A DNA stretch of 64,000 nucleotides, from contig JBAJFG010000501.1 in the NCBI GenBank assembly GCA_037903475.1, positions 62,001-126,000 on the forward strand, in the 5' to 3' direction. The position numbers and the translations under genes are program-made. Positions 6,122 through 63,770 of this stretch are shown here, one piece after another; position 1 is the first letter of the stretch, and the number at the start of each line of letters is the position of its first letter. The notes under the pieces are model-generated. The model made no database searches. It worked only from the letters and a program-made list of their open reading frames with translations, and was not told where the DNA came from. Source of the stretch: Ancylostoma caninum (taxonomy: Eukaryota; Nematoda; Chromadorea; Rhabditida; Ancylostomatidae).

Positions 6122-9100
6122 TTACACATCCAGATTCTCAAGACTTTTTTGCCGACTCCATTTCTCCAGTGCTATTTGGAGATTGTTCATGTCAGTTCCC
6201 CATGCTAGTAGGATGACTGCGGGCACTCGCCCATTGCAGGCAAGCTCCGCTCCTTGCAGTGAAGCTCCTCCCACACTACTTTTCTGAGCCACCTAATGAG
6301 AGTCTCGTGATCTGTGAAATACTCCCCGTACAGGGTGCAGACATTTGGAGCAGCATTCTTTTTACCATAGGGAAAGGAAACGCAACTTCCGAAATGGAGT
6401 TTTTTTTCCGGCTCGCATTTTTACTTCCAAGGTTTCAGGTTCGGAAAACTTAAGTAATTCTGAAAAATTGTTTGGATATTCTTGTAGAGAAAGCAAAGCG
6501 TTTTTGGGTGACTATGAACAATTGACAAGTCAATGGAAAAGAGAGGAAATACAAACAAATTATTGAAAAACGCAGAAACTATTTGAAAATCTGATATAAC
6601 ATTTTTGTCCTCATTCACTCCTAAACATTTTTCAGTCCAAAAGAGGTTGAGCTCACATAGTGCACTCCTAATGTTGGACAAAAATTTATAAGAGCCATCA
6701 CTCACGAGACGTAGCCGTATGTAGCTGAAGTGGCCTAAAATGGCGAAGTGGATCGCTTGGCTTTTCAGATGGTACCTAAAATTGCTTGAAACATTCAAAA
6801 TTATTCCATATTTGGTCATCAGACAGGTCAGCACCTCGAAACGGTGCTGACAGGATATGCCCAAAAAAACGCCAAACCGTACCTGCGGCATTTTCGTAGT
6901 GGTAACTTCTGGCCGAGTTGTCTCTGTTGGCACTGGGCACCATCCACCAGTGCAACTTCGAGACTCATATGAGTTACCTGGAAAATGTAAGGAGATGACA
7001 TTTAGAATACTGGGAAGCTGGTCGCCTAATTCCAAAAATAGTGTATTATTATTTCTAGTAAACAACAAGGTGTACCTTGGCATCCTGAGCTCATTGCACT
7101 TGAATATATACACCGCCTTGTTCGAACTTGCTTTCCACAGAAACAATTCGCCCAGGAACCCCACTCCGTCCAGTGGGAATCTGGAATAAGCAAGTTTTTC
7201 TTAAGCTATCGTGCTTAGAGAGAAATAACGAGAGGTCATTGATGGAAAATTATTGTACTACCGCTCACGCACGCCTGTTATTGGGCAGTGACCCCAAGCT
7301 CACTACGTTCTTCCTCTGCACTGGTTTGCCTTCTATGGCCTTGGAGAAAAGGTGTAGGACAGGAAATTACCTCCAACTGCGGCAGTGCCCTCTGTAATTA
7401 TGTGCATGGGCTGCTGGTGGAATTCTTGGTTATGTCCTGGTACGAATCCAGTTTGTGAAGGAACTAGCGACAGATCCATTGCTGCAGGTATTTCCTGAAG
7501 TCAGGCCCAGATTGAGTCCTCCATTTTTCAGGGATCAGAAGCTGCAAATATTTGGTATGAGTTTTACCACTGACCTCCGGGGGATAGCTAGGCGATGTCC
7601 CCTCCTGCGATTTCTTTTTCGCGGTCTCTTGGTCTACGGTGATATTGTGCACTCGTTTTTCCATGTCGTCCATCAAACTCTGGAACATTTCATGGATGAA
7701 TTAGCCAATATGTATATGTAAAAAAGGAGGATTGTTGTATTAGGGAGCGGGGCAAAAATTGTCCAACAAATCAGAGAAAGTATGTCTTGGTGAGCGTAAC
7801 TGGTAAGGCGGAACAGGAACTTCGAATTTAACTATTAGACGACGAGAAAAGTGCTCTTTCTACAGAGGAGCAAGAAGTTTGGAGTGGTCTTGGTAAAAAC
7901 CTGTGGTTATCTTCATTCGAAGATCTCTAGATATTAAAGATTTTCCTAACAGGAATATAAAAAAACGTATTGCATCGTAACAGGGATATAAAAAATGTAT
8001 TGTTGATGATAACAATGTCAAGAAGCGTGAACTACAGAGGTATCAAAAAGTTTCCGGCCTCCGCTCGCCTGTTCCATATTTCTGCACTGTTTTGAGAGCG
8101 CCATTTATGGTGAAGCCTTTCATGTCAATTTGCAAATTTTCAAGAGGTTTCGTTAAACTTCTCAGAACTAAGAACGTTTTATTCAATGGTTATCGCTCAA
8201 AAAATGTGTATCCAGCGAAGGCAACCGACGAATTTTTGTTTTGTAAACCGCCCCTTAATTGTAAACGAAGAGCAAGCCTTCAACTGAGAGCCCATTAGCA
8301 TTCAGTTCTGACTTTTGGAGATATGCCGTTCATGATCCGATATGAGCACTAATCAGGTTTGGATCGAAAATTCTCCAATGATAATAGAATAAAATCTATT
8401 CAAAAGAGATTTCACAGCAGAGAAAGTGAATGAAATGCAGATAATCTCAATCATGTTATCTATATGCTCACCTGTAGTGTTTTTATCTCTTCCAGAAGCC
8501 GAACTGGATCTTCGGTAGTGGCTAAGTCTTTCTTCTCAACTTCCTTCTGCGAAGTGGTCTAGAATTGAAAAGAAAAACGTAAAGGATCAATCCAAGTAAA
8601 AAAAAAACAGGAAATTGGTAGAAATTCAGATGTAAAGGCAAACCTTGGGAGCTTCCTCAATGATTGCCTGATCCCACTTGTTCTCATCCTTGTCCTCGTT
8701 CACTGTTCGAACACCGAATGACCGTGCACGGCTCGCCATGGTTATGGTGCTTTTGAATTTTGGGAACTGGAACAATGCACTGTGCACTCAAAGGAAAATA
8801 CAGCACTCTACAGGGAAAGTTGTTTACCATTTTTTTCTTGTCCACCTGCTTTGGTTTGAATTCTCCTGAATGCACATGACCAACAGGATCTCTGAGTTTC
8901 TTCGCCTTTCTCTTCATGGACAATCCCTTTCGTCGACCTTTCTTCGTCTAAATCAAGCTACTATAAGTAGTCTTTTTTCAAAAACAAATTGCTGGATCTG
9001 CTCACGAATTTTGGAAAACCTAAGAAGAGGCATCAAATTGTAAAAAACAATCAAGTATGTGTTATACCTGCCCCTTTACCTCAAATTACTAGAGAATTTT

Positions 9101-12100
9101 TTACTTTTTTTTACAAGTGGTCAAACTTTCCCCCCTCCCCCCCCGCATCATGGCAAATTCTGTCCTTCAACGCCTTCCTCATTCCTTTTTAAAAAACTAT
9201 TTGCTTTCTCGTCGTATGTAGACGAATAAGATTCAAAACCGAGCTATACAGGAACATATACATATGTATACATATGCGGATGTTTGGATGAGATGCAGGA
9301 GAATAAGGTAAATTTTCTGAGAGTAATCCATTCAAAATGTTTATATAGGCCTCTGCTAAAGTTGATTCACCTTCTTTGGCTTGCTTGATTTCTTGTGGTC
9401 CGGCCGCTTGATCGTTGCTAATTGTACTGCGAGTTCAGTTGGTTCAGAGTTGGAAGCCTGAAATCAATGTTCTGGACACTAGAATTATTCCTTGATGAGA
9501 AGAATTAATATTTATAAAAAAAAGAGTAGCAAAACGAGGCTACGGCCGCATTTTTGCAAAGCCCACTTGTTTAAAAAAAGATGGAAAAGCAAATGTATTA
9601 GGTTGTTGCGAAATGAATTGCCGAAGTGGACCCTTCAGTTCAAAGTGTTGTAACTCGGCTCGAACACTACCTTTTTCATCAATTTAGCAACTATTCAACT
9701 CGGTAGATCATTTCCGACAATCCAGCGCGGATTGCATGCCTCTACCACAAAAACTGAGATCACAAGAATTTGCAAACTTTCGGAATGCAGTGCCTCAGGT
9801 CAGCAATCTGTTGCTGACATAGGCTTGTATCTGGAGCTCGGAAAAAATCATATACGATAGGGTAATGGTCTAAGGAATGAGGGCATTGAGTGAGAACGTC
9901 GATGCCTTACTGCATCAGTTTTTGCCGGGTGAGTTTTGGAATGTGAGGTTTAACGTTACCCTGGAGCTGGGGAAAGCCAGATTTGTTCATTACTATCGAC
10001 CAAGTGAATGGCAGATTTGAGACATCAACTCGAAGTTACAATTCTAGGACTCTGTTGCCAATGCTTGGCTAGGCTGGGGCAGACTGCAGTGGATCACACT
10101 CTTACAGCACCCCCCAAATTCTTGACACAACCTCTCCTAGTGTGAAGATCTGGTTCAGGGAAATTTGGAGATGGGAGGAAGTCTTTACCGATACAAATTC
10201 ACGCTTTCTTTCATAGTACAGGAACCAAGCTCCATCATAGCCCCTACAGGGTCTAAAAATAGGCAACTTTTGGGGCGAAAAATCAAGTTGGAAAAGATGT
10301 CACAACGGGTGAAACGCTGGTCATCTGTCAGATCGTGGGGTGTTCACTTCCGCACCTTTCTCGTCACGTCGATTGAAGTGAAATGTTTTGAAACTGTGTT
10401 TCAGTAAACGTCCATCCATTCCCTCAACGTTCAAATGGTAGGACCCGGTTCAGGTTCCACGGTTGTCCTCAACGCTTGATCGTCAGGGAACAACCTGCCT
10501 TTACGACTGTGGTTGCCCTGGCGATCAAAATCGACGGAAAGAAAATTCGCAATCCAGCAGCCCACTGCCCATTGGGAAGGCGATTCCAAGGCAAGACAAA
10601 CGGAAGATTACCGCATACCTCCGAGAAAGGATTATCGACTTTGAATTCATTACTCATAATCAGCCGAAAACGCGTCGGCTTATCATTTGTTCGCGACTTC
10701 ATAAAAATTTTCACGGATGAAGCTAGCCAGTATAGCTTCAAGCAGCATTCGGAAGAGGAAGAAAAGCCTCACCAGAGGGTTACATAAATTGGGTTGAATT
10801 TGCTCAAACTGGGCAGCAGAGAAAAGGTTAGTTGAACATATTCCAAAACGGCTATTAGTTTCGCAACAACCTGGTAGGGCATCACTCCATTATTGTTATT
10901 TGTATGTGAAAGAAAACCCACTTCTTGAGGAGTATCCACGAAGTTGATATGGTCATCCGAGTTAACTTGAAGTGCTCTGAAATCGTCATGTTCGATTCAT
11001 TCATTCATTCATTCATTCAATCATTCATTCATTCATTCATTCATTCATTCATTCACCCATTCATTCACTCATTCCCTCTATTTCGTTCACTTACCTATTA
11101 ATATAACATGGTAAAACATACTTCATGAAGGCTTCATCTCCTTTTTCAGCAATCTTCGTGATGTTCTGCAACATCCAGTCGAGAGCGTGCAGGGTATCTT
11201 GGGAAAGCTCCTGCAAGGCTTTAAAATTTTTCAAAAAAATTTAAAAAATTGGATGCGCCCTATCAAAAAGTGCAGGACAATGCCCATTTAGGAACAACAG
11301 GCTTACCTGCGGGTCCTCCTCTATTATTGGCTCTCTCGTGGTTGTTGACGTGGTGGTTGGACGAGCGGTGGTAGTTCTTACAGTAGTCGGATGAATGACT
11401 CTCTTTGTAACATCTCCTTCATGTATGGCGCTTTTCTTATGATTTTTACGGAAGAAAATTCCAGTGATTCCAAAGCCTGGAAGAAAAGAATTTAACGACC
11501 AACGGAACGTCGGTGAGAAATCTCAAGACGACCTCTACCCTTCATTTTCTTCTTTTTTATGGCATTTTCTGGTACCACCTTGCTAAGGCCAATGTATGCC
11601 TTGTTCGCTTTGTACGTGAGCGGATTGGTTGGTTCTAGAAGCGTTCGTTCATCGCTGAAAACGAAAGCTAAAGACAATGTCCTCTCTGATTTGGGCATTT
11701 GAATTTTTGAATGATTGAAAAAAATTGCCGATTTGATAATTGAAAAAAAAAACAAATAGCAAGACGATCAGTATATACGCGAACCACTTATACAAGCCAG
11801 ATGATCAATGGATAAATGAGTAAAAAACAGATGTGTAATTAAACGTCAATGAATGAATGTTATGAAGAGTGGTGAAGGGAGGTTTACGTACATGGTTAGC
11901 CGATGATTGAGTGTTAAAGACATTGAATGAATAGCGAAGGAATGAATGAGAGCAGGACTAGTTGATTGAAGTAGAGAAGCAGAAAGCAGATGAGTGAATG
12001 AATGAATGAATGAATGAATGAATGAATGAATGAATGAATGAATGAATGAATGAATGAATGAATGCGGTAAATGAATGAATGCGATGAATGAATGAATGAA

Positions 12101-15100
12101 CGAATGAATGCGATGAATGAATGAATGAATGAATGGATGAATAATGAATGAATGAATGAATGAATGAATGAATGAATGAATGAATGAATGAATGAATTCG
12201 ATGAACGAATGAATGAATACGGTGTGCCAAATGAACGAAGGAGTGAAGCAATGTGTGAGTGAGCGAAGGATGACAATAAAGATAAAAATAAGAAATAAGA
12301 AATAAGCAAACAGACGAGAATTTTACCCTTGTAAATCTACACAAAACTAGCCCAATGTATAAAACTGTCAACATAGCAGCAGGGAATCGGCGGTATCCTT
12401 GCGGTAATTATCCACCCATTATACACAGATCTTCTTGTGTTTCGATATTTTTTATTGGTTTCCAATATTTTTCCGTACTAGCTACATATTCTCGCCAGCG
12501 GTGATTTAGCACTAATTCCTTCGAAATTTCCAAATTTTCACGGAAGAGGGCAACTCACATAATGTCCTTCTGAGCACCCGTCAGCTCATTCACCAGTGTA
12601 GTGAAGATCTCCTCCGAGGTTGTGTCTGCACCAGTAGTAGTTGTCGATGGTGTTGAGCTGATAGTTTCAGCTGTCGTGGGTGGGTCCGTAGATGTCTGAG
12701 TCGTTGGAGGAGGCACCGTTTCGACAGGTACAACTATTTCTGGCATGACGTCTTCATCGATGTCATTTTTGTTCAGCTGAAATATAGGTAAAGAAATAGA
12801 ATACCTGGCTACCAAGCACTTGAAGAAAAAACATCTTCTCATCAAGAAGAAGTGCGATTGAATGTGTATTTTGAAAAGTATTGTATTGATATTTAGTGAT
12901 GCACTAAAAAAACATTGACTGAAACTTCCCAGGACAACTTCATAGCACAGCCTAAGAATTTTTTTAATCATTCTTGCTGCCACTTAACGTTAGCTGTCAA
13001 ACCTATGCAGATTACCCTCTTTCTATTAGAATAATCTCTTGCGAACCGAGAGCTGTCCGCCATTGGTCCACCTCGAGCTCGCCAAAAGATCCCTATTCCA
13101 ATGACCAGTGGCGTTCGCGCAGCATTCACTCCCCCAACCTCTCTTCTCTTCGCCATCCAAATTCCTTTCTATCCATTTTTATAGTTTTTACTATTGCAGC
13201 TGTTTATTCATAGGCTCAATATCAATAAACATCACAAAAAATAGCTATAGAATGAAATAATTCCAAAATTGAGTATAATAATATGTATAAATATAAATAC
13301 TAGGGACTCACCGTAGGTAGTACCACTTGCGGTCGTGTACCAAATTCTTCGAAATGCTCTTCGTCTTCGAGAACCGGAACAGATGAGGTTGTAGTCTGTT
13401 CTGCAGGTGCTGAAAAATAAAACGCAATGTATGCAATGTTCAAGCAGGAACTGTGGAAACTTTGAAGTTCATGAAATGAGTGAGAATCACGATAAATATA
13501 TCATATTCCATTAGAACTAGCGTTTAGTACTAGTATGACAACTAAATTCTTGCTTTCACAAATTCTGCCAGTTTTTGACATTTTGATTTTTGCCTTATTT
13601 CTGCACCATATGATAGCAGACGGAGCTGCGCGTGGCTCTCTAAATTCCTGTGTCCTACACGGCATCCATCTTGTTACAATTATTTCTCCAGTGTGATTAG
13701 TAAATGACAAAAGTTTTGTAGTTTGCCAGAGCAAAATTCTTAAGTTTTTATGGGAGCAATCCTTTTGTGCAACAAAGAGTGGTGTATTCAAAGTAGTAGT
13801 AGTAGTAGTTTATAGCCTCCCATTAAAGGAGAAGTCAATGTCACTGCTCAGAAAGAGCTCTGTGATGGAGAAATCAACTTCGAATACAAGACTGTGATTA
13901 GGAACGCAAACGAGAACACTGTGAGCTCATCTGCTCGAACATTTAGAAGGATGATTGACATCTGCCATAGTTTAGCAAAGTGTACCTTCTCCTCTTTTCA
14001 AAGAAAAAACCTTATAGGTAGCACATCATGCAAAGCGAGAAAAACGTGGTCGGAGTTAATTGATGACCGCGCTTTTGAAGACCCTACTGATTTATTGCAA
14101 ACTTTGACGAAACAGTCGGGGGCAGGAGTTCCCTACAGATTTTCTATTTAAGCAGATATTCCACTAATTAAATAATGCTTGCCCTGATGCCTAAATCATC
14201 GATTAGAAAAGCAACAACTTATAGAGTTTGTTAGCTTCTAAACACTCATGCATTTCTGTGAACTGGACCGGCCGTAAACCTGGTCACAGCGCGCAGAGAA
14301 GCTGTCACAAAAATGGAAACGCACTACATATTCAAATTATGCATAGTTTAAATGGCCACTTGTCTTGTGATTTTTTTTTTGAAATAATTTTCAAGTATTG
14401 CATATCGTCAAACCCAAGAACTTAGTTGCCATGCTAATATTAGCATTTAGACAAGGCCCAGCGAGTAAATGAAAATGTAAATGCAAAATAGATAGTAGTA
14501 GAAAATGATTACAGGTAGAAGTAAGTGAGGCAATCAGGTCAATTATAACCGAATTGTATTATAGAAGACAAGTTCACCTGGTGCAGTAGTTAGATCTGGA
14601 GTAGTAGCCTGCTCCGTCACAGGCGCTTCTGTCTGCGCTTCGGCGACTTCGGCCACTTCTTCTTCAACCGTTTGCTCATGAACTTCTTGTAGCGTTGTTC
14701 CCTTAGACTGGAATTAATATGTATAATCACATCTCTTAAAGCATAAAAGTTTGGGTGGAATGAGTTGCAAATCCAGACTTCTGATGTCTACCTTTTCCCT
14801 AAGAACGACATCCTTTGTGCTAGAGAGGCTATCTTTCGAGAAGTCTTGGACATTCCTCCACTTTGAAAAGTCGCTGGAACCTCTCTAAAAAAGTGATTGG
14901 AATTTTCAAGGAAGATAATTAGTCCTTATTTGCTTTAGAAGCATGCTACAGATTTGTTGAATGAAACGGCATAAAAGATAAAAACGTTCAGATATAATTG
15001 TATAATATAACCTATTAAATAACTAAAATAACTTATTTGTCAGGGAAAACCTTTTGTATGAAACCTATACAAGAGGTTTTCCCCGATGGACAATTTATTT

Positions 15101-18100
15101 TAAAGACAAGAGAAAGAGTAGTGCTGCTGCTGCATGTTACGAGTAAATGCATTAAATTTCACAGGAATGACGAGCCAAAACTCAGAGACCAGTTCTAGGC
15201 TGAGATTTTTTTTGCATTGGAGCACTAGGAATCATAGTCGCTTGCACAGATAGGTATTCAAAAGGATATTCAAAGAGTTTGAAAAGTGCTGATGTTTGAT
15301 TGGTCCATTATTTGAATATTCGAAAATAAAAACTCGAAGACCACTGGATATGCAATCGCTTGTCACAACAAATGCTTCACTTGTAGAGATGACAAAGGAC
15401 ACCGACAGAGAGCACGTGATGAGAGGTAGAGAAGAAGATTTAGAGGTTACTTGGTCAGAAAATAGGTAAAATCCGTAAAAAGGGGAAGTCCATATCAGTT
15501 TTTCCTAAATATTAAAGCGGAGCGTATTAATCACCGTCTTCTTTTCTGGTTCAATAAGCTCAGATGGGTCCCAAACTCGTATGTCTGGCTGCTCTCTGGG
15601 AACCTCTTGACCGCTTCGTCCTTCATCACGAATATGCAGCGAGTTCAGCCTGAACAAGAAACTTTATTTTTGGACCAGCTGTTCGGCTAAGAAGAACGAT
15701 AAGACCCACGCCGCTTCAACTTCTTCTCGGTGAAGCTCGAACTGTTCTGCTTCCTGCGGATCCTGCAGAGATTCCATAGAACGAATCAAGAAATCAGGGA
15801 ATCGGGGGTTTTACTACGTTTAGCAGAAGGAGATTCGGAAAAGTTCGGAAAAACGTGGGGAAAAAAAGCGTGAAATTTCCATTTAGTGAATTTCCGTATA
15901 GCTATTGCTCTTCAAACACTATATAAACATGCATAAAATATCCAGAGTAGTGGGAAGAAGGAGTATTTTACTACTTACTACTGAATAATACCAAATGGTT
16001 GAATTATTCACCTTGGCAATTTCTGGCTCTACATCCTTATCGGCAGGAACTGTTTTCACCGCGAATTGCCGTGGTCCAGGAGGTCCGTATCCGCGTCCTA
16101 AATTTCATATTAATCTTTTAGATATACATGAAGCAGGGAGCAGGCAGAAATGTTGCCAATTTTATTAGAAAAAAAACAATTGCACTGCTTGTATCCTATT
16201 TATTTCTTCACTTCTGTATTCCACTCAGTCTCAGGCAGTTTCAGGGGACCGCCCGCGCCCCTTCTTTATTGTAGAGGACCGCCCGCGCACCCCTTTTTAT
16301 CTGAGCGGACCAGCCGCGCACCCCGTTTTATCTTAACTGACCAGCCGCGCACCCATACTTGTCTCACGGACCGCCCGCGCACCCTTCTTTATCTCAGCTG
16401 ACCAGCCGCGCACCACAATTGTAAATAAGTTCTTTTATGTGATATGCAGTATCACCTATCTTCACCCAACAGTGTAAATACAGTTCATTCGATCCCGTGT
16501 TGGTCTGCCCTACGTCAAATGCGTACCAAGGCCCTCAAACGTGTGTGCGACACGGATGATCGTTGTGAGTTGTAATTGCAATAAGGGATAGGCGTCACAT
16601 GAGCGCCATGGGGGCAGGGTCATATGTGACGGAGGCGGGAAGATGGGGGTCGTGTTGGAGGGAAGAGGGGGGTATGTAGAGGGGTGAATTGACCAGTGAA
16701 TATGCCGTGAAAGTTATGGTTATTTCATGACATTATGACGACTGACTGTCCCCCTTGTCAGTCGTAACCACTAACCATTACGTCACAACATGTAAAAACG
16801 GTACTGACAGGCAGCACATGCGAAAGATCAGCTGCAGGGCTGGCTTCTGCTGCACCACTAGTTCGATTCTCGATATTGGAAAAAAATTTTTTTTGAAAGG
16901 GCGGAATCGACTCAGAATAAATTGTGGGGCAAAGAGGGTGCAACTGTTCGGAGATGAAGTGCGGAAAGCTGATTCGATCGATTACTCATTCGTCTGTAGG
17001 CCATAGGTGCGATAGTCCGAGCCAAGGCTCAGACCCTCTTCACTTTGGGAGAGGGCCAATAGACCCCTTTCACCAAAGCAGTTACAGAAGACAAGGAAGT
17101 GAAGAAATCAAAAGTTTAGTAAAGTGAAACTGAACAAATTCAATGATAGAGGATCGATTCTATTGCTGTCCATGTGAATAAAGGAGTCAGGAATCGAAAT
17201 GATGTTAGTGTTGAATGGAGCGCGCAATGTGACCATTGCCGCAGACAGGGAAAATGACGAGCGAATTTCTATGTGAAGGATAAAGAATTAGATATGAGTC
17301 AGGGTATCTAATTGAAGCTTAAACTAGTAGAGTTCACATGTTAGAAGTGGGAAGCGATAGATAGCATGTTTGCGGAGAAATTTTTGAACACATAAGGGTA
17401 TGAAAAACATAGCATGTATGTTTGTAAGATCATTATGGAAAAGTTCGTGAACTAAGCGGAAAGACGATAGTCCTCCACAATTTGCAAGGATTTTCTCTTC
17501 ATTTTCGTGTATGAGTTGTGATAGTTAGCGTAAGATGAGCAGGCAAAAAAGTGGTACCAACAGGACGGTGGAAAACTCTACAAATTAGGTGTTTTTCAAA
17601 GGATTTCGTCTTGTGTTTCCGAGAAAGTGGTAACTATTTACATGTATACATACTAGAATAGATGTGCTTTCCACCCATATACAAATGTATGGGGGAAACC
17701 CTTTTCTGGTTGAAAAATAGGGTGGGTGAGCCGAAACAACGGGGCATTTTCGTGCCCGTTGGTAGACAAATGGCGAGGTAGTGCGATGAGGGAGGAGAGG
17801 CGCGCGCATGGGGTGAGAATTGCTTCAGAAACATTCTCACCCCCCTTCACAGGAAAAGACCCGCAACCACATGAAACGAGATGTGGTTTATCAGTTGGGG
17901 GATTGGAGGAGGAGAACATAGATACCCTTCACTCCTAGGTTTCGCTTCCGAATAAAGGCGTAATAAGCAAAAATTGCTCAAAAGCAGGTGTAATTTCAGT
18001 GTCAAATTTTTGTATGTAGGAGAGAAGAAATGTTGTGCAGTTGTGTATGTATGAGTGGACCATATCATGAGGGTGTGCTGAGGACTATCTTCATTCATGT

Positions 18101-21100
18101 AATCAATGGCTGTTTCCTCACTTGAAAGCAGTATCCTAGAGCATCCGCAGCACGATAGCGATGACTCATCACTATCGTACGGTTTCATGAGACGCTTAAA
18201 CGGTGCGTTTGCAGAAATATATTGCAAGATTTGCTCAGTTTCCACGGCATTTGAAGACATGTTGGGTATTACATCAAGGGATAGGGCTTTAACGCTTACT
18301 TACCAATACAACAACTCTTGCTAAAAGAAAGCAGAAAGCCCCCTTCCCCCGGTCGACACCCTTCACTTTTTGCCTGATGACCCCCTTCACTTTGGCAGGG
18401 GCGTTGTCATCCCTATCGCACCTATGCTGTAGGCCCCAATAGTTCGTAGAAAGGTAGAGCAGTTTAGACCTTGTGCTGAAGTTGTCCGACCTAAGACCAA
18501 AGATCTAAATCTGAAGTTGTCAGAAGACCTACTGGGTCTCGGAAATGATGAGCTAAAAATTGCCGACAGCAAAGCTTGTGCCAAGTCCGGGTAAATTAGC
18601 TATCTGAATGGTTCTCTCTTTCTTATCAGGGTCGAGCTCCTTAAACTTTCTTTGAAGATTTTTCATTGGTCTCGTATATAGCGAAGAAGAAAGAAAAAAG
18701 GTGCATGACATGCTAGTTCTGAGCGAACAACGTGGAGACCACTTTTTAAAGCCTTGCAGAAGGCCTTGAGCTGCTGAGGAATCCTTATATATCTCCGCCA
18801 GCTGCGCTGAGGTAGTTTTTCCTAGGAAGGATGTAGGCGGCTACTCGCATAGTGGTGATTCCTTTCATGGCACCTTCAAATGGGTCGCCAACAGTGTAAG
18901 TTCAATTTTCTTCTTCCCATAAATTTTTATTATCCTGAGTTCTCCTTCACCCTTTACTGGAAGGCGCGCGTTTGGGCTCAGCCAAAAAGAGGTGTGGCTA
19001 ACGCGTCCCACGGGAACGCAAGCAACGCGCCACCGCTAGGTGGCAGTCAGGAAAGATCACGCAGAGGGGTGTAATTCTTGAAATGTAATTCTTCAAACCC
19101 TCCAAACTTTTCCCATAGAAGGCTACTTGCTGGGCTGATCGAGGAATCGGTGTCCATTTTGTCAAATGACGTCATTTTTATCCACTTGAAGAGCTAATCT
19201 TCGGGTTCAGTCCGTGAAATAAACCCTCTGTACAATATTTCAGGCGATTCTACGATCATTCATCAGATTCATGAATCCCTCTACTGAATATAGAGTTGCG
19301 TACCAATACCCTCTTTGAAGACCTCCCTGTTGCCACGTTTATTGAATTTCCGCCTAGATAACCGGAGAAATTCATTTGCCTTCGTTTTTGGTTTTCGTGC
19401 CTGTGAATTTTCGTTTTTCATGATTATATCGAGTTTTATGCTGTTGAGATGCGTATTTGAACGAACAAATAAACCTAAGATGATGATATACATATGATTG
19501 ACGATGTCAGATGCATGACAAAGATGTATCGGAACGGAAAATATGCAAAGAAGGCTGAATTCAAAAAGAGAAAGCAAGGGTGCTCGTCTCGTCAGGAAAT
19601 GTAGCGCGGCCCGTCAGCAATTGGGTGCGCGGCTGGTCCGTTTTAGATCAGATGCTGACCGCCCGCGCACTCAATTGCTGACCAGTTTTCATCCCTTACG
19701 CGGCCCGTCAGATTTAGGTCAGCGGCTGGTCCCCTAGAAGTGCCTGAGGTGATGTAAGATGAAGAACAAGAAAAACACTAAATTTTTTCATTGAACACAT
19801 GAATAAATTGAGCGGTTCTATACTCCTAATTCTGTAACATTTTTCATTTTTATATGCTCAATGTTCCCTCAGTAGATTTTTGTATGAGACATTTTATCAC
19901 GAAATGATACCCACTTCCTACCGGCGTTTCTAAGCGAGAGATGAGAGCGGAGGCACCGAAGTGGAGGCGTGGCCTAGTTCTACATCCACGACGTCCTCTG
20001 TCGCGATTGGCTTATTACCTTGCTCGCACTACGAGACATTGAGGGTGAAGTCCGCAATAGGAATTTGTCGCATATGGCAGGGTGCGAAGCGGTTATAGAA
20101 TGTGTCTTGTATAAAGTGAATTTACCCTTTTGATGGCTTTCAAATTGGGAATGGTTTAGCAAACAAAGATAAGACACAAAAAAATGAAAAGATGGAGAAG
20201 AAAAAACTATTAGGAATGAGCATGCACAGCGCTGGTCAATTATTTTTGCATCACAGAAGACCACCCATGTGATCTGGTGCGGCGGACCAGCTGGACGTTA
20301 TGGGCGTTGCCGGTACTGATGTTTTGCCAAAGTTTTTTTTTGAAATGAAAACAAATTCACAAAAAAGAAATGGTGACGAACATGAGCAAAGCAGCAAAAC
20401 GGACAACTTTGACAACCATAGCGTCCAGCTAGTCCGCCGCGCCGCGCAGCTGGTGCAACGCGGCAGAATTTCTGTAGTGCAAAAATGACTGGCCAGCATT
20501 ATATGTGCGCACTACTTTTATAAATGAGAAAAAATACACACAGTTCCCTAATTTCAGTTACCATCAGCACAGTGGCGAACGCAGAAAGTGGGCGGGAGGA
20601 GGGGGGGGGGCGTGGGAAAAAAGTGGGATCTCCGCCGATTTGGGGACCCAGACGGAAAATAAAAGTGATAAAAATAATAATTATAATAATTAATAACTAA
20701 TAAAAATTATATAAGAAACAATAATAAAAATAAACAAGTAAAAATAAACTAACACAAGATGTTTATTTGTATTGTAAAGTAAGTTCAAAAATTTGGCGAC
20801 CCATTCTCGGGGGGAGGGGGCGCCCCCCCTGCGTCCGCCACTGCATCAGCAGTTCTGTCGTGAATTTTTGATGAGCGCTCCTTCAGAGGCCTTTCTTCCA
20901 AGAACTATCGGTTGACACCAAGTTATAAACTATATCAATTTATCTAAAAGTTACTTTGCTACCAATACATGGTGTATTTTTACTTTTGATTTCATTGCTG
21001 AGGGAGATGCAGACACCACTCTGCTTCTCTGCACTCTATCAGAAGTAAAAAACGTACGTTTGCCGGGATGAGCTGGTGACCTAGATGAATGGTGATGATT

Positions 21101-24100
21101 CTTCTCGAAGTCGCTCACCGAGATTGGGGTCCTTTCTCCTGAAAACGATTGGATCAGAACTGGTTCTGGAAAAATATGCGAGTTAGCATCTAACTAGTAT
21201 AAAACCACATAACTAGCCAACTATTCAAAGGATGGTAAGCCAAGCCAATCATGGAGGGTAAACAATATTCATTCGCAGTTGAAGCATCTACACTTGCACG
21301 GCACACTGTTTGCACTCACCCTGCTGGATTACTGTAGACTACCGTAGCAAAATGAAACCACGAACAGTACAGCCGAATTGCAATGATTCATTACGGTATT
21401 GCATGACAACGTTATGGCACAGGAATATTACAGTACAAAGGGGTAAGTACGTAGGCAATGCTCCCACCAAACATTCTATGTGGGCGTAGGTGTGAAAGAG
21501 GTTGAGCAAGCAAAAACTCCACGTTCACTGATTCTATAAATCAATTTTTTAACTCCTTCTTCCCATTACCACCGGACTAGCATGTCCAAGGCACGGTTGC
21601 ATCATTGGATGGATGGGTAATCACACAGCCATGCGTGTAATTACTTTTATTAGGTGTAACACCTGGATACACACAACGTCCTGTGTGGGTAAACACGTTG
21701 AAGAAGGCCAGGTAAAGGGTAAATTTGGAAACGTTGGTACGTTTACCACGTTAGTCCCAATGATGCACCCAAGCTTTGGTCGATTATTTTGGTAACCCAT
21801 CATGATTTCTTTTCCGGAACTCAACACCCATATTATTCTAAGTGAATAGTTATGTGAACCTTAGGTTTTCACAGCAATTGTGCTTTATGATAATATTTGT
21901 TATTGATCGTGGATTTTATGAGATTGATATTATATTATTTATTTAAAATGTAGGGGACATGGGTAAATGTAAGGAAAGGAAGAATTAGGGGAAGAAGGAC
22001 TGGGTATACGTACGCAGGGGTTTGTCAGTGACCGGAATTGCGATATTCATGATCGCTTGCTGGAAGATTGTGACCTTCCCGCTCTTGTAGGCCCGCACGC
22101 ATAATTCAAAGGATGGGTAATCCTGTACCCATGGATACGACTACCTATGGGTAGCGGTAGGGTATAGACAACGTCCCGGGTGAGCAAACATTGTGACGAC
22201 TGCCAGGCAAAGGATATGGGTACGTTTTCAAATTATGAAACTGGGTCATAAAGTGGGCGAGTTCTCTAGAATAGTTATACTTTGCCCAACTAGCTCGTCT
22301 CAGTCAGCATTGACAAATATTGGAGAGGACACCAAGATAAATTGATTTTTCTTTTCGATTTTGCTGGAAACTCGTTCATTTCTAATGAACGAGAAACAGA
22401 CCACCTTCCTGGGAATTTTCAAAAATCCTGCTATAGAAAGTAGGATGAGATACTAGGAAATACAATATTGTTGAATGCAGTAGAGGTAGGAGTGAGAGGT
22501 TCTTAACGGGAAGAAATCCAGAATCCAAAAAAGACGCCCAAACACTGAGATATATTGTGTTTTGGTTAGAATTCTACAATTTTTGCGCTTTCCTCCAAAA
22601 CATCGGCATTATTTCTTGGAAAAAAAATTGGTCTTCACACTCTAGAAGTTCTTTCATTTTGCTCTAGCTTCTCTCAAAATTCATATCAACAAAAGAAATT
22701 CGATAAAGGGCCTACTGATCGCCATTTAGTGGTTTTGGTATCCCATACACACTTCCGTAAACGCCTTTAGCCAGATTGTCATCAAAAAGCGGGTCTTCCA
22801 GCCATGGATATACATATCTCGGAGTGGTAATAGCTATAAAAACCTGTTCCTCGTTAGCACCAACTTTTTCCGTAGGAAGCAGTAGACTCGGAACAGGGCT
22901 CGTACTAGCAACTGGCTCCGGGCCAGGGTTTGGCTCCGCCCTAACGCTACTTAGAGAGGGTTTCTGGATGTTGTCTAGCACTGTCCAGTCATACTCGGGA
23001 TTCTCCACCCATTTGAACACTTCCTTGGAGGAATCAACACTGCCTACTTGTGGCTTTGCCTCCAAGGACTGAACATCTACTGTAGGGACGCCAGCGACTT
23101 TTGTGATGTCAATCACCGAGGACTCACTTATGGGCTCAGCAGCATGGACTCGGAAGCCGCCCGATTCTGGTTTGGAGAGCTTAACAAAGTTTGGATTATT
23201 TTGCTCCTCGGCGGCGGGGAAGTCGTCCGGGTAGAGTTGTCGCATCGCCTCGCGACGGTCGGCTTCGTACGGATCGACGACGTCGTAGTCGGACGGTGCG
23301 GACGGGTTGTGATGTGAGTGGCGCACTGAGGGGTCACATGGCTTGAACTCCTGAAGTATGTGAACATCAACAACTTACCATGCATCACGACCGCCATACT
23401 ATGAACCCTACAGACGGAGCGAGACATATAACAAAGCCGGTGCTTCCGCGGCCTTTAAGGTAATAAAGCGAAACGGCAAAATTTACACTAATTTTTGCTG
23501 AAAAAAAAAACGAACCGTTCCTCTTTTTTGCACAGTTTAACCACATTATTTTAGTCCAACCAAGATCAAAATAAACAGGCTCATACAGACATATCACACA
23601 GACCGCTGCGAATTAATCGATAATGCATGGTGTTCCATTTCCTCTGAAATGTCGCCCTCGTATCTGAGCGATTCTGCTTATTAACTTCTCGTATATGTAC
23701 ATATTGTACTGACATTACTTATTCATTTCTATAGTACTGTATATACAGTATGTATATACAGTACTGCTCCTAATCTTTGCGCGCTAAGCGTTAAACCGTC
23801 GCTAAGCGTCGCTCTTTCATAACATCCTTAGAATGAAATCAATTCCAATTTTTTTGAAAAGCCAAATAGTGCGTTTCATGGCGAATCTTACTATATATAA
23901 AATTTTCAACATCGTGCTTTTTAATCTGCAGAAAATACCATTAAAAATGAAGTATATTGATCACTCTGGATTAAGGCGGTCAGGTACAAGGAAGTCTGCT
24001 CAAATTTGTAGTGATTTTTTTTTGACCGGTATAGAGAACAATATTGAAAAATTCATGAATCATTCATTGTAATACAGAGATTCCATATATTCAGAAAAAA

Positions 24101-27100
24101 TTGGATATTCTTATTTCTAAGAAATTTACGAACGGGAGACGCTTTGCGACGTATTAGTGCGTCGCGCGCGACCTTTTTGCAAGGATTAGGAGCAGTACTG
24201 TAAATTAGCGTGGTATCTTCACGCACAAAGAAAGAAAGAAATAAACATAGAAGCAGCCGCAATGCAGTGTCAGTAGGCTGATCCTGCGACCAACCAAAGG
24301 GAAGACATTGCAGGGTTCGTTTGGCAGGAGATTTTAGAAAGTGATAGTAGGAAAACAACAAAATGAAAGGAATAACACTGCATATGTCAGAACTGTCAGA
24401 GGAAAGCCTAAATAGCTGATCAGCCGGCAGATACCACGCCGCAGCTGTAAATGCAGACGAAGTCGCATACGCACTCCCTGAGCTGCCACTTAACCAATTA
24501 TGATCGGAAAAAAATTTGGCTACATGCCAGCTGTTAACAACAACGTAGGTTGCTGCAATGTGAAAAGAAAAAATATATGTCGACTCGGCGGATATTTGTG
24601 CAGCACTTTGTAGACAAGATAAGGATGTAATGAGAGAATCGCTAAGACCAAGCAAAAAAAAGGAGAAAACGGTAGAATCCTCGGTAAGTTGTTTCAGGTT
24701 CAAGTGCAAGTAGGAGCAGAATTTCGCAGTTAGACTTCTACGCGGCTGAGTCATGGATGAATTGTCCTATGCAGTTAATCACTAATAGCAGCGAAGATTC
24801 TCAGGGTCCAAGTATTTTTTTTTTCAAAAATCTTCCTAAAACACATGTATCAGAGGAGAAAGGAATGAATGAGATAAAAGGCTGAGAAAAGAAACTAGAG
24901 CTACACCGTCATCTTCTAATGCTAAGTCACAGATCTCGATTTTATAACTATGGACACAAGGAACGCATGCGCAAACATTTCGCGACAATCCACATTACAA
25001 GAAATCAATGTCATTTTTTGAATCCTCAACGCTTCATCAACAAATTTTCATATTAGTAGCAAAAAAATTACAGCGAAAAAAAATGTGAATAGATAATCAA
25101 ATGTGGTCCATGAATAATTACATGTTTTAAAGTCGAAATGAACAGAACTCCATTAGAAAACTACGGATTAAAGCGTTAACCCACCTTGTTAGGTCCAAGA
25201 CAATTAAATCCTCTGACAGTGTTACATGCTCGTACTCGCATCCGAACTCCATTGGTGCAGAATGACCAGGCGGACCATGCTGCCCACACGGAGGCATATA
25301 CTGAAACGAAGTAGTCTGATAGCCCAGAGTTTCCCGAAGAAGTTGATATCATCCCAAAAAAATCCTCTCTCCCTGCAATGACGTGCGTTTTAAGGGCTAG
25401 GAATGCTGTTCCTAGGGTCGTAAGGAGGACTATGGCAATAATTAGCTAAAATCCTTGAAAAGTGGCTCAATGATGGGAGAACTTTTTCCATCAAATCCCT
25501 CTCTGGATTTTTTTACCTTTCACTTCATTTATTCGCGCTGAGGGCTCCCCAGGAGTGCGCCTACAGTCGCTACCATTGCCGGGATCCAAGCAAAGAATTG
25601 TGGCAATCGATAAGCATCTTTCCTATGGTCGTTATCGCTTTCATTGCAGGTTCAATTTATTTCATTTAAAGCGGAGACTCTTCATGTACCCTAAATGGGC
25701 ACTTTCTCCGAGTAAGAGACATAGAACCGGGGTAGCATGCATCACTGGGGTTACCTTGAAGCTGCACGAAAATTACCCATTTTTAATAACGGCATCGAGA
25801 CATTTATCCTGGGTAATCTCAATTATGCGTTCACGTCTTGTAGGGTTGCGATGAAAAAAAAAACACCTTCACCAGAAATTTTACACGGACTGCAGGAAGA
25901 AATTCACCTCTTTTTAAGCAATCCTTCAGTTCACCCATCCTAACGGAATCTACCCCCGCCCATCCAACCCTCCACCGACCCCTCTCTTCCAGAGAACCTC
26001 CCTTATTGTGAAAGTTCGACGCTGCCTCCGAATCAAGTGGAAGTGATCTCACTGATTAGTGATCACCGCACACGCTCGCTCACTCGCACGCACGTGCGCG
26101 TATGTTGTCCGTTTTCGATTTCGGACGAAATTTAGTGGGTCACATCGCCTATCACTGGCGCTGAACCTGCAACATCAGCGCTGGCGATTTCGCATAACTC
26201 GATGATTACAGCCACCCCCAGGATAGTGATCCAGCCGGAGAAAGTTCCGGATCGGCAACCGATGCACGCAGCGAAATGATCCATAACATCCCGGCGCATC
26301 CTACGCGCTTCTGGATCTTGATGAAGGTGAAATTGCTCGCAAACAAAAAGACATTTAAGCGGTTTGAGCAGCAAAAGAAAGCGCTCCGAGGAACGATAGG
26401 AGTAGGCAATGGATGTGCGCTGCTTCAATGAGTCATAAAAGGTACGTAAAAGGAAGATAATCGTGTAAAAACCATGGGAAACTTGGGTAAATGAGAAAGA
26501 TTGACGAATAACCTAGAAAACAAAGAAAAGAGCGAAAGCTTACCGAATTCCGCGTTAGGAGGAAGAGGTCGAGGAGTGACGAAACCTCGGAACTGATTAA
26601 GTTTTCCCGTTGGAGCCCACTCTGGCTCGGGTGTTTGTGCAGCTAAAAAACCGAAATTAGCGACAATTAAGGACATAAAACAGCAAGAAAATCAGGAATA
26701 ACTCTAAATGGAACTTTCTCAAGAAGCAGTGAGATGTAGGGGCAGTAAGAGACTTCGGAAGGGTTTCTCCGTGTTTTCAACTACATTATTGAGAATTTCT
26801 GCTACTTTCCAGATACTAGAGGTATTTCATATTGTAAAAAAATCATGAGTGACTTCAGGCATTCCGTTTCAAATAAGAGGGTGAAACACATTGTAGATGA
26901 ACTTAAATCTGCCAAAGTGCTGTGCAGCTGTAGTTTCTTATCCGGTAAAAAAATGACATATAGGTCACGAAGAAATCGAAACGTTTGGAAATTTTTTCAT
27001 TTCAATTCATGGAAATCGCAGTAACAATCGAAATTCCATCCAGTATACTGACTCGTAAAGAATTCCTTAAAACTGTATCATACTAAAAATAAAAAAAAAC

Positions 27101-33100: not shown

Positions 33101-34563
33101 TTTAGTCCAGTCAAGCTGTTTTCCACATGAAAATTACAGCTTTTCTTAGACGAATCCTCTATCGTAATGATCTTTTAGAAAAGTTTCCTGTTAATCCACA
33201 CAAGCTATTCTAAACCCCTTCTAAAACCTTCCTTTTTGAATCAACAACTTCCACAACTTCCTTAGAAAGAGTCCCTTAATAAAAGATGTTGTCGCATACC
33301 TTGCTCGACGAGTTAGAGGATTATACCAAGGTTCAACTACCCAACTTCCAGAAATTCTCTATTCTTCTACTGCAATAGAGTTCTTCTGCTGCTTTCTACT
33401 GTTTATTATTTATTCGAACTAATCAGTCAGCAGGAGTTCAACAATTTTGTAACGTAAAGGATGTAGATCTTTGACTTCACACACAGCATTCAGAAAATAT
33501 ATACAAAACAATTTTTTAAAAAAAACTGCAATTCCAAAAATGTACACTTTTTTCTACTGCTATAGCACCATATTTCTGTTATAGTATACTATATTTTCTG
33601 CTGCATATTTTTACTATAACAGATAGAGCTAGTAGAATTCTCACAAATGGCGGCCAAAGAGCGTGGATTTAGTGCTATTGTGAATCCTTTTGCATTTCAT
33701 ACTTTTCCTTAGTTTGATCCTCTGCTCCATTTCTGTCAAGAGAATCGCCGTGCTTTTCATTTTAATCTTATACAAGGAGTACATGCAGTACTTACGAAAC
33801 AAAAACCTATGGCTAATAGTATTTTTACTCTTCGTTCTATTTATTTACTACACTTATGCGAAAAAATAGTGGATATTCCGTATTAATATCACGAATAGAC
33901 TAAGGACTTATAAATGAGGGCCAGTCCATGACAACAGTGAAAGTGACAGTTAGTGACTATATTGAAATGGATTCCTGTCGAAATATTAATTCACTATTCT
34001 TACACCGGTGAAATACACCATCAGTTCACCACAAACGCGTTAGCGAAGATGATTCCGCCGAAGATCATCGCTTCTCATTGACGCCGGTGATAGTGGGTCA
34101 GTGGTAATTCTCTCAGAATGTGGACTCGTTTCATTAAGTACACTCGGAACCACACACAAAAACACTTGCGTTTTCAGGTCTTTCAAGTCTATTAACGCGA
34201 TGATAAGGTTTAGCTCAAAGTGACGGTCAATGAATTTATTGTGGAAGTATGGAAAAACAGAGACGGTGAGAAAAAACCAGGATTTTCTTCTATTGGGCTA
34301 CTTCGAATAAGACAGAAATCCCAGATCAACAGTACTTAAAAGGAATTTTCTAGGAAAAATTAAGCCTAGGCCCAGCTTAGAGGCCTTTATGGGCCTAATT
34401 GGCCTGGAGAATATCCAAGAATGGTCATGGATAACATCAGAAAGTGATAAAGAGAAGAAGAATAAGCGGAGAGCGGAACAATAAAAGCAGACTCACTTGC
34501 CAAGGGAATAAGTAAGCACAAAGTGCCTACGGTGGCCGGTAACTGGTAAGCTAACCGTCCCAT
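6122..34563 (-). CDS. Secreted protein with two thrombospondin type-1 repeats, 24-exon model
   Basis: Rebuilt from splice sites with phase kept at every junction; about 1,021 residues. Exons in transcript order: 34497-34563, 26544-26642, 25185-25300, 22753-23350, 21058-21138, 16012-16097, 15710-15762, 15535-15649, 14792-14884, 14578-14707, 13312-13409, 12559-12776, 11539-11654, 11307-11476, 11122-11210, 10922-10976, 9371-9457, 8846-8947, 8644-8766, 8472-8558, 7568-7679, 7076-7180, 6883-6977, 6122-6292. Exon 1 encodes a signal peptide (MGRL, then hydrophobic TVGTLCLLIPLA). Exon 3 encodes a first TSP1 domain (WAAWSAWSFC, RMRVRAC), closed by KPCDPS in exon 4. Exons 22-23 encode a second (WTEWGSWANCFCG, VRTRRC, ESRSCTGGWC). 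Between lie Thr/Pro/Glu-rich segments, a Lys/Arg-rich stretch (TKKGRRKGLSMKRKAKK) and a probable coiled coil (RLLEEIKTLQSLMDDMEKR). TSP1 domains bind extracellular matrix, so a matrix or cuticle-associated secreted protein is likely (inference). A longer in-frame N-terminus could start at 34731. The 22753 donor (GTGTGT) is the weakest link, and the last exon is uncertain. Not a protein I can name. Confidence 0.7.
6883..7180 (-). other. TSP1 domain 2 exon pair
   Basis: Exons 7076-7180 and 6883-6977 join in phase to give a second TSP1 repeat: HWTEWGSWANCFCG, VRTRRC, SSGCQG, SYESRSCTGGWCP. The six-cysteine pattern and WxxWxxW core match the family. A Thr-rich tail (TETTRPEVTTTK) follows. The reading frame also continues unspliced into the intron on either side, which produces a misleading long open frame at 6421-7164. 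Confidence 0.85.
9598..10874. mobile_element. Mariner-like TIR element, no intact transposase
   Basis: Inverted ends AGGTTGTTGCGAAATGAAT (left, from 9600) and, read inward, AGGTTGTTGCGAAACTAATA (right, ending 10872). The element is flanked by TA on both sides and about 1.28 kb long, as usual for mariner. The ends resemble the AGGTTGGTGCAAAAGTAAT-type ends of the cecropia/Hsmar1 group of mariners. I found no continuous transposase or D,D(34)D region on either strand, so this copy is dead or non-autonomous. It lies in the TSP1 gene intron between exons 10922-10976 and 9371-9457, ending about 50 bp from the former. Confidence 0.75.
10994..11075. repeat. (ATTC)n tetranucleotide repeat
   Basis: About 20 units of ATTC with a few variants, in an intron of the TSP1 gene. 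Confidence 0.97.
11993..12197. repeat. (TGAA)n tetranucleotide repeat
   Basis: About 200 bp of TGAA units interrupted by GCGGTAAA- and GCGA-type variants, in an intron of the TSP1 gene. It is the reverse complement of the unit at 10994-11075. Frames through it give His/Ser/Phe/Ile-rich pseudo-peptides that are not genes. Confidence 0.97.
16230..19748. mobile_element. 3.5-kb element with subterminal repeat arrays
   Basis: Both ends begin CTCAGGCA and continue to AGGGGACC (left from 16230, right ending 19748, inverted). Just inside the left end are six direct copies of GACCAGCCGCGCACC or GACCGCCCGCGCACC spaced about 30 bp apart (16246-16415). The right end has the same motif in both orientations (19605-19735). 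This layout, short TIRs plus clustered subterminal repeats, is that of DNA transposons whose transposase binds the subterminal motifs. No transposase is visible inside and no target duplication is clear. It sits in the TSP1 gene intron between exons 21058-21138 and 16012-16097. Confidence 0.6.
16994..18434. mobile_element. Nested inverted-repeat unit inside the 3.5-kb element
   Basis: CTGTAGGCCATAGGTGCGATAG at the left is matched, inverted, by the segment ending at 18434 with CTATCGCACCTATGCTGTAG. Next to both ends are CTTCACTTT-containing segments. It may be an older insertion that the larger element carries or was interrupted by. Nothing coding was recognised. Confidence 0.4.
20231..20497. 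mobile_element. 267-bp MITE with imperfect TIRs
   Basis: Outer inverted ends GCTGGTCAATTATTTTTGCA / GCTGGCCAGTCATTTTTGCA, plus an inner inverted pair GCGGCGGACCAGCTGGACG (20280-20298) / GCGGCGGACTAGCTGGACG (right arm). The GGACCAGCTGG part resembles the subterminal motif of the 3.5-kb element. No coding capacity. It lies in a TSP1 gene intron. Confidence 0.65.
20570..20843. mobile_element. hAT-type MITE with 8-bp target duplication
   Basis: Starts CAGTGGCGAACGCAG and ends CTGCGTCCGCCACTG (inverted; one mismatch). It is flanked by a perfect 8-bp direct repeat CATCAGCA at 20562-20569 and 20844-20851. The 8-bp duplication and CAG...CTG ends are diagnostic of the hAT superfamily. At 274 bp it is non-autonomous. 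G/C runs lie next to both ends and the core is AT-rich. Confidence 0.92.
21139..22711. other. Intron or intergenic stretch of the TSP1 locus
   Basis: No exon recognised. If the long isoform is right, this is the intron between exons 22753-23350 and 21058-21138; otherwise it is the 3' flank of the short form. Confidence 0.4.
22712..23350 (-). CDS. Alternative terminal exon of the TSP1 gene
   Basis: If the donor at 22753 is not used, this exon reads on for 13 codons (ending KPLNGDQ) to a TAG whose last base is 22712. That would give a short secreted form of about 300 residues: signal peptide, one TSP1 domain, then an acidic, Pro/Ser-rich tail (YDVVDPYEADR, NPEYDWTVLD, YVYPWLEDP). The exon starts at a TTCAG acceptor at 23350 in phase with the TSP1 exon. 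Whether the locus makes short, long or both forms, or is two genes, cannot be told from sequence alone. Confidence 0.5.
   Translation of the reverse strand, partial: EFKPCDPSVRHSHHNPSAPSDYDVVDPYEADRREAMRQLYPDDFPAAEEQNNPNFVKLSKPESGGFRVHAAEPISESSVIDITKVAGVPTVDVQSLEAKPQVGSVDSSKEVFKWVENPEYDWTVLDNIQKPSLSSVRAEPNPGPEPVASTSPVPSLLLPTEKVGANEEQVFIAITTPRYVYPWLEDPLFDDNLAKGVYGSVYGIPKPLNGDQ
23759..24200. mobile_element. TA-flanked MITE, 442 bp
   Basis: Left end CAGTACTGCTCCTAATCTTTGC and its inverted copy at the right end (CAGTACTGCTCCTAATCCTTGC) differ at one base. Both ends are flanked by TA. This is the pattern of Tc1/mariner-type MITEs. It lies in the intron between the first TSP1 exon and exon 22753-23350. 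Confidence 0.88.
25185..25300 (-). other. TSP1 domain 1 exon
   Basis: Encodes the WSxWS-type first half of a thrombospondin type-1 repeat: WAAWSAWSFC, then RMRVRAC and FNCLGPNK. The CLGP...KPC ending, typical of TSP1, is completed by the first codons of the next exon at 23350. Acceptor TTTCAG; donor AAG|GTGGGT. The upstream exon 26544-26642 ends in the matching phase. Confidence 0.85.
27659..28198. mobile_element. TA-flanked MITE, copy 1
   Basis: Ends CAGAGTGGGCCAAAACTACG and, inverted, CAGGGTGCGCAAAAAAAACG, each flanked by TA. The interior matches the copy at 38112-38628 along most of its length, for example GGTGGCCACTCAATT, TTCCAAATTGCT and AATCTTTTTCTGAT. Tc1/mariner-type ends; no transposase. 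Confidence 0.88.
28612..28821. mobile_element. Degenerate hAT-type MITE
   Basis: The right half (CTATTCTCGGGAGGGGGCGC, then CCCCCTGCGTC) matches the right end of the 20570-20843 hAT MITE, and the left side begins CAGTGCCGAATGCA. The ends have drifted and no 8-bp duplication can be shown. Confidence 0.5.
28925..29350 (-). CDS. Small secreted hypothetical protein (141 aa ORF)
   Basis: Uninterrupted frame with a good signal peptide (MPLLPMLFIFILQCICNVSA), then a mature part with a CxC pair (LQCQC), a basic central section (NVRLRRILRC) and no transmembrane segment. It lies within the large intron of the TSP1 gene on the same strand. I recognise no family. The CxC after the signal resembles how netrin-like/TIMP domains begin, but the other cysteines do not obviously fit. 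Chance open frames of this size occur in the window, so this is tentative. Confidence 0.28.
   Translation of the reverse strand: MPLLPMLFIFILQCICNVSAIPWTLLVLHPFKTSSRPNLQCQCRVSAVTQDCDLPYPNNARFRDQQRGKNVFDQDVLLEYFASIVDNDLLCRFISSYQANVRLRRILRCTQFYVNSLRRISAKDMHERNQTSHPAIFASKT
29868..29930. mobile_element. Truncated hAT-type MITE right end
   Basis: TTTGACGACTCATTCGCTGG followed by C-rich sequence resembles the right terminal segment of the hAT MITE at 20570-20843 (TTTGGCGACCCATTCTCGGG then C-rich). The terminal CCACTG is absent. Confidence 0.4.

Positions 34564-51063: not shown

Positions 51064-51123
<60 letters not shown>

Positions 51124-54732: not shown

Positions 54733-63770
<9,038 letters not shown>

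Follow-up and report, generated by a model that had tools for sequence, protein, structure and literature searches.

Introduction

Thrombospondin type 1 (TSP1) modules follow a canonical pattern that combines a tryptophan ladder with six cysteines. Two nematode proteins with such modules offer points of comparison for the gene reported here, and in both cases the comparison is with their published descriptions. According to these accounts, MIG-21 of Caenorhabditis elegans is a C-mannosylated TSP1 protein and a client of the DPY-19 enzyme, and p43 of Trichuris is a secreted protein whose TSP1-like part binds glycosaminoglycans. The same accounts assign p43 an additional part that resembles the interleukin-13 (IL-13) receptor, and they describe its overall structure as unique. 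Mucin-like proteins form a further point of reference: according to a review of the cuticle (PMC11304992), upwards of 20 mucins are predicted in C. elegans, and in some of them the mucin part is joined to other matrix domains.

Here we report a gene in the hookworm Ancylostoma caninum that encodes two TSP1 modules at opposite ends of a long, mucin-like linker. The gene lies on the minus strand of a 64,000-nucleotide stretch of intron-rich nematode DNA (contig JBAJFG010000501.1, positions 62,001 to 126,000), hereafter called the window, and all coordinates below are positions within it. Its product is a predicted secreted thrombospondin type 1 repeat (TSR) protein from a family that is predicted in databases and, as far as our searches reach, undescribed.

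Results

A single intact gene with 26 coding exons

Exons were placed on the minus strand by splice signals, joined, and then corrected against the orthologue from Ancylostoma ceylanicum. An initial model of 906 residues served for the first protein search, the whole-protein Pfam scan and the composition figures given below. The final model comprises 26 coding exons running from 34563 to 5170 and encodes 910 residues. All 25 introns have GT-AG boundaries, and the reading frame is kept across 25 of the 25 junctions. A first-pass annotation of this DNA had proposed a minus-strand gene of 24 exons, with phase kept at every junction, that ended at 6122. The gene, its strand and its phasing stand, whereas the exon count rises to 26 and the end moves to 5170, the last coding exons being 6775-6706 and 5177-5170.

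The strongest evidence for the gene is its agreement with a predicted A. ceylanicum protein, P0001 (Y032_0012g1791), of 909 residues. The two align end to end with only three gap positions, and 783 of the 910 model residues are identical. The degree of identity suggests a source within Ancylostoma that is close to A. ceylanicum yet distinct from it. Because this identity to an independent prediction extends over the whole length, the gene is real far beyond chance. Identity per exon ranges from 16/35 in exon 21, the lowest value, to complete in exons 2, 8, 24 and 26. When P0001 was compared with the window using tblastn (E ≤ 1e-3), 24 of the 26 exons were matched and no match fell elsewhere; the exons left uncovered were exon 16 and exon 26, the latter because its 8 bases are too short for the overlap rule. 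Seven further orthologues likewise produced no match in the window outside the model, covering 19 exons (Necator), 12 (Haemonchus), 6 (Auanema), 5 (Plectus and C. elegans each), 4 (Steinernema) and 3 (a filaria). The linker exons, whose absence from related gene models would have counted against the original proposal, are present in those of related nematodes. A rough probability that all exons are open in the required frame by chance, calibrated on the minus strand of 36-64 kb, is about 10^-18, a figure that is only indicative because the exons were taken as chosen. We conclude, from sequence evidence, that this is a single intact gene with 26 coding exons.

Two TSP1 modules, one of them with four cysteines

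The modules occupy residues 61-99 (module a) and 822-867 (module b), with 722 residues between them, close to the spacing of about 750 first suggested. Module a reaches the Pfam TSP_1 family (PF00090) with 26.3 bits and an E-value of 8.4e-6 in the initial model, above the cut-off of 21.6 bits, and module b alone scores 14.1 bits, which is under it. We nevertheless accept module b as a TSP1 module on the basis of its tryptophan ladder and six cysteines, its orthologues, a profile match to UNC5 proteins and thrombospondin-1, and weak structural matches to TSR domains. It scores 80 bits against the family model over residues 820-868, the window sequence being among the seeds of that model, and in five of the eight orthologues scanned Pfam reports a pair of TSP_1 stretches (E ≤ 1). 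When the family profile was compared with solved structures, module b matched the netrin receptors UNC5D and UNC5B as well as thrombospondin-1, and module a was better matched by complement C7. Module a also has the tryptophan ladder and carries only four cysteines, with the spacing C-x10-C-x7-C-x9-C. This spacing is identical in 41 of 42 family proteins, and the six-cysteine pattern of module b is found in 23 of the 42.

Each module carries a W-x-x-W-x-x-W-x-x-C ladder (residues 61-70 and 822-831) that provides three C-mannosylation sequons. The POFUT2-type consensus for O-fucosylation, C-x(2,3)-[ST]-C-x-x-G, occurs in none of the 42 proteins. The signal peptide proposed earlier agrees with the hydropathy profile, in which the most hydrophobic 19-residue window of the protein begins at residue 4. 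By hydropathy alone no second hydrophobic segment follows, in contrast to MIG-21, which is described as transmembrane. Composition figures from the initial model bear out a linker rich in threonine and proline, acidic residues and lysine, with threonine making up 21.9% of residues 364-468. Pfam matches below threshold, including DUF3294, SKA2 and MOV-10_N, were set aside as noise.

A family found across nematodes

The first protein search, with the initial model as query, scored 7989 candidates and returned 34 proteins at E ≤ 0.001, with P0001 at the top. A second search took as its query the N-terminal region of a Ditylenchus protein, which is conserved in the family, and required candidates to have five-residue words in common with the query and to fall within a length window. 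Including the query, 38 of the 110 scored candidates passed; the 34 with named sources are all from nematodes, and the other four come from a nameless source. The matches span strongylids, Caenorhabditis, Mesorhabditis, Steinernema, Strongyloides, Parastrongyloides, Panagrellus, Bursaphelenchus, Ditylenchus, Meloidogyne, Globodera and filariae, and the first search contributed members from Plectus, Auanema and Angiostrongylus. No protein from Trichuris, Trichinella or an animal other than a nematode appeared among the named matches, which is weak evidence of absence given the word and length requirements. A profile search with the family alignment returned only six proteins, each of them found before. 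Its candidate list was probably taken up by low-complexity words from the linker, and the search is uninformative about distant relatives.

The hookworm protein carries the N-terminal motif (residues 33-55), the four-cysteine TSP1 module (57-100) and the D-Y-D...Q-L-Y segment (114-134) in the family order. The window sequence was among the seeds for these matches, and support for membership that is independent of the seeds comes from the identity to P0001. Since orthologues occur in filariae, Strongyloides and plant parasites, and also in the free-living genera Caenorhabditis, Plectus, Panagrellus, Auanema and Mesorhabditis, the suggestion that the protein is lineage-specific does not hold.

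Among hookworms, the predicted proteins of A. ceylanicum (Y032_0012g1791 / ANCCEY_08507) and Necator (RB195_004352) have the same modules in the same order. Nothing essential sets them apart from the gene described here; the models vary in an extension of exon 4 and, in P0002 and P0005, in the absence of the first half of module b. The C. elegans member, a 680-residue protein named 'Mucin-5AC' (P0030), shares the N-terminal motif, the four-cysteine module, the D-Y-D segment, the threonine-rich linker, the W-M-L helix and two H-x-G-[ED] motifs. However, it is without the second TSP1 module and ends instead in a tail common to six of nine Caenorhabditis-type proteins. None of the six named Caenorhabditis proteins found (P0014, P0015, P0018, P0022, P0025 and P0030, from five species) has module b in its C-terminal part, and neither do three nameless Caenorhabditis-like proteins. 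The module is present in Plectus, filariae, Strongyloides, tylenchids, Auanema, Mesorhabditis and strongylids. We take the six-cysteine C-terminal module to be ancestral, and the simplest reading of this distribution would be a single loss in Caenorhabditis.

Database names of members include 'hypothetical protein', 'Thrombospondin type 1 domain', 'Mucin-5AC' and 'Titin'. Eleven member identifiers (four hookworm tags, one Haemonchus accession and six tags from other species) had no occurrence in the open-licence papers searched, and the family is not named in the accessible part of a C. elegans secretome survey. The first-pass statement that no named family has this layout thus holds as far as checked. 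Tentatively, we consider it possible that these proteins form an undescribed, nematode-specific family of bivalent TSR scaffolds that are C-mannosylated and not O-fucosylated, marked by a fixed four-cysteine TSR variant and by an H-x-G-[ED] motif that recurs in the linker, whose ancestral second TSR was lost in Caenorhabditis.

Exon map and alternative splicing

All exons lie on the minus strand, and identities in this section are to P0001. Exon 1 (34497..34563; 21/23) supplies the ATG and the putative hydrophobic signal peptide, residues 1-23. Exon 2 (26544..26642; 34/34) encodes the motif P-T-G-K-L-N-Q-F-x-G-F-x-T-P-R-P within residues 23-56, and exon 3 (25185..25300; 37/39) most of module a, including its ladder and Cys 70, 81 and 89. 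A scan of intron 1 for inverted repeats found none.

Exon 4 has two forms. The short form (23128..23350; 69/75) covers residues 95-169, with the final cysteine of module a (Cys 99) and the conserved D-Y-D-x-x-D-P...Q-L-Y segment. The frame remains open past the donor at 23128, and a second in-phase donor at 22753 defines a long form (22753..23350) with 125 additional residues. This insert is identical to A. ceylanicum P0002 at 100 of 129 positions, to Necator P0003 at 57 of 118 and to Necator P0005 at 54 of 106, and its best match beyond hookworms is in Haemonchus (E 0.025). Necator P0004 is without the insert although it bears the same gene tag as P0003. From these gene models, we read the extension as a putative hookworm alternative 5' splice site.

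Next comes exon 5 (21058..21138; 21/28), which also has an in-frame acceptor at 21165. The acceptor at 21138 has the higher splice score and reproduces the residues of P0001, and is most likely the start of the exon; the one at 21165 may be an alternative site. Intron 5 (4.96 kb) holds a GC-rich repeat of 31/61 bases at 16241-16414, with words that look similar by eye at about 19620-19710, possibly a dispersed hookworm repeat. Then follow exon 6 (16012..16097; 21/29), exon 7 (15710..15762; 15/18), exon 8 (15535..15649; 39/39), exon 9 (14792..14884; 27/31), the acidic exon 10 (14578..14707; 36/44), exon 11, rich in threonine and acidic residues (13312..13409; 28/33), the Thr/Pro mucin-like exon 12 (12559..12776; 59/73) and exon 13 (11539..11654; 34/40). 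Four-base microsatellites (ATTC/ATGA) lie in introns at 10995-11074 and 11990-12218.

Exon 14 (11307..11476; 53/57) encodes the first H-x-G-[ED] motif (IHEGDV, residues 516-521) and a threonine-rich stretch. The conserved helix LSQDTLHALDWMLQNITKIAE (residues 557-577) is encoded by exon 15 (11122..11210; 29/30), and a structure model of the A. ceylanicum protein has a helix at 559-588. Exon 16 (10922..10976; 14/19), which tblastn did not match, and exon 17 (9371..9457; 23/29) precede the Lys/Arg-rich exon 18 (8828..8947; 31/40) with the second H-x-G-[ED] motif (VHSGEF, residues 657-662). After exon 19 (8644..8766; 35/41), a predicted helix begins in exon 20 (8472..8558; 23/29) and ends in exon 21 (7575..7679), and a conserved segment, residues 732-752, is encoded across the same two exons. 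Exon 22 (7371..7494; 38/42) carries an A-x-D-L-x-L-V-P motif, a loose form of which is found in 11 of the 42 proteins.

Module b is divided between exon 23 (7076..7180; 34/36), with the ladder and Cys 831, 833, 842 and 852, and exon 24 (6883..6977; 32/32), with Cys 862 and 867. Exon 23 is absent from P0002, which additionally is without exon 22, and from P0005, an older Necator model. Because this exon measures 105 bases and has phase 1 at both ends, skipping it would preserve the frame, and its omission is either a prediction error or a genuine form. The C-terminal tail comes from exon 25 (6706..6775; 23/24) and exon 26 (5170..5177; fully identical), which has a strong acceptor and only 8 coding bases, for L-S-stop. 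Together these two exons encode the H-T-A-T-S-L-S terminus of P0001 and of Necator P0003 and P0004. A candidate last exon at 6459-6421 was dropped, as the A. ceylanicum tail pointed to the pair retained. AATAAA occurs 3' of exon 26 at 5097 and 4831.

Surroundings of the gene

Downstream of the gene are two long tandem arrays, at 10-1831, with units of about 79-80 bases (higher-order 144-303), and at 2369-3863, with units of 118/456 bases. On its other side, an open frame at 44546-45025 (minus strand) has a weak match to the Sec1 family (19.5 bits, under the cut-off of 30.7). Exons for COG6, a subunit of a Golgi complex, lie at 49939-53640 on the plus strand (Pfam COG6_N 2.1e-9, COG6_C 1.6e-6), and a DUF1744 exon lies at 56083-56451 on the minus strand (8e-15). 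DUF1744 lies at the C terminus of the catalytic subunit of DNA polymerase epsilon. A BLAST search for plasmid sequences found no match.

Discussion

Proposed function and alternative explanations

The protein probably serves the worm itself, in its matrix or in adhesion, as a secreted molecule with C-mannosylated modules and a mucin-like linker, and a matrix protein is our best guess from its sequence features. Since both modules carry C-mannosylation sequons, we infer a secreted protein processed in the endoplasmic reticulum, which it would enter by its hydrophobic N terminus. There the tryptophan ladders would be C-mannosylated by the worm's DPY-19 enzyme and the Thr/Pro stretches presumably O-glycosylated, before the protein is released into the extracellular matrix of the worm itself. 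With one TSR module at either end of a long tether, and with a basic patch, the protein would suit a bivalent binder that contacts matrix glycans or receptors at two points, the extended mucin-like tether connecting them. The alternative 5' splice site of exon 4 might set the length of this tether in hookworms or add a binding segment.

Whether one gene or two should be read here turns on exon 4, which is open as far as a stop at 22712 and whose extension looks coding. A protein of 306 residues could end there, leaving the second TSP1 module to an adjacent downstream gene. The A. ceylanicum and Necator models place the two halves in one protein whether or not they include the extension, and both modules occur together in members from Plectus to hookworms. 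We therefore reject this division as very improbable. The first-pass annotation had raised a host-interface role, with the protein as a secretion specific to blood-feeding or parasitic worms. In favour of this are the TSP1 modules and the basic patch in a hookworm protein predicted to be secreted; such a protein might bind host matrix or a host cytokine in the manner of whipworm p43. The p43 protein of Trichuris muris contains TSP1-like subdomains, and it binds both heparan sulfate and IL-13 (PMC6538607). However, Caenorhabditis, Plectus, Panagrellus and Auanema share the four-cysteine module and the motifs that flank it, and the main texts of hookworm secretome studies mention thrombospondin only in one reference title, although the protein may still be present in the secretions. 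Because orthologues occur in free-living worms, the core function would predate parasitism. A role specific to parasites thus appears improbable, and the suggestion is not supported.

A cell-guidance or signalling factor, acting as a secreted partner of UNC-5/UNC-40 or of MIG-21-type pathways rather than as a structural matrix protein, is less remote and still unlikely. The netrin receptor matches of module b point in this direction, as does the fact that the DPY-19 clients named in the literature consulted are guidance or migration proteins. Yet the structural match reflects the TSP1 fold in general, with module a closer to complement C7, and our searches found no genetic evidence for such a role. 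To our knowledge, guidance ligands do not typically have a mucin-like linker. The matrix or adhesion reading is preferred, and since free-living worms possess the family, the core job would be done within the tissues of the worm; hookworms might conceivably also turn the protein towards the host.

Implications for nematode biology

Entries scattered under names such as 'hypothetical', 'Mucin-5AC' and 'Titin' can now be grouped as one nematode family, defined by an architecture that can be tested. One prediction is that C. elegans has an additional DPY-19 client. Experiments on a C. elegans mutant would by themselves say nothing about the second TSP1 module, which is retained in hookworms, filariae, Strongyloides and plant parasites. 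If the loss in Caenorhabditis is true, the standard model worm would have half of a machine that other nematodes, hookworms included, use in full.
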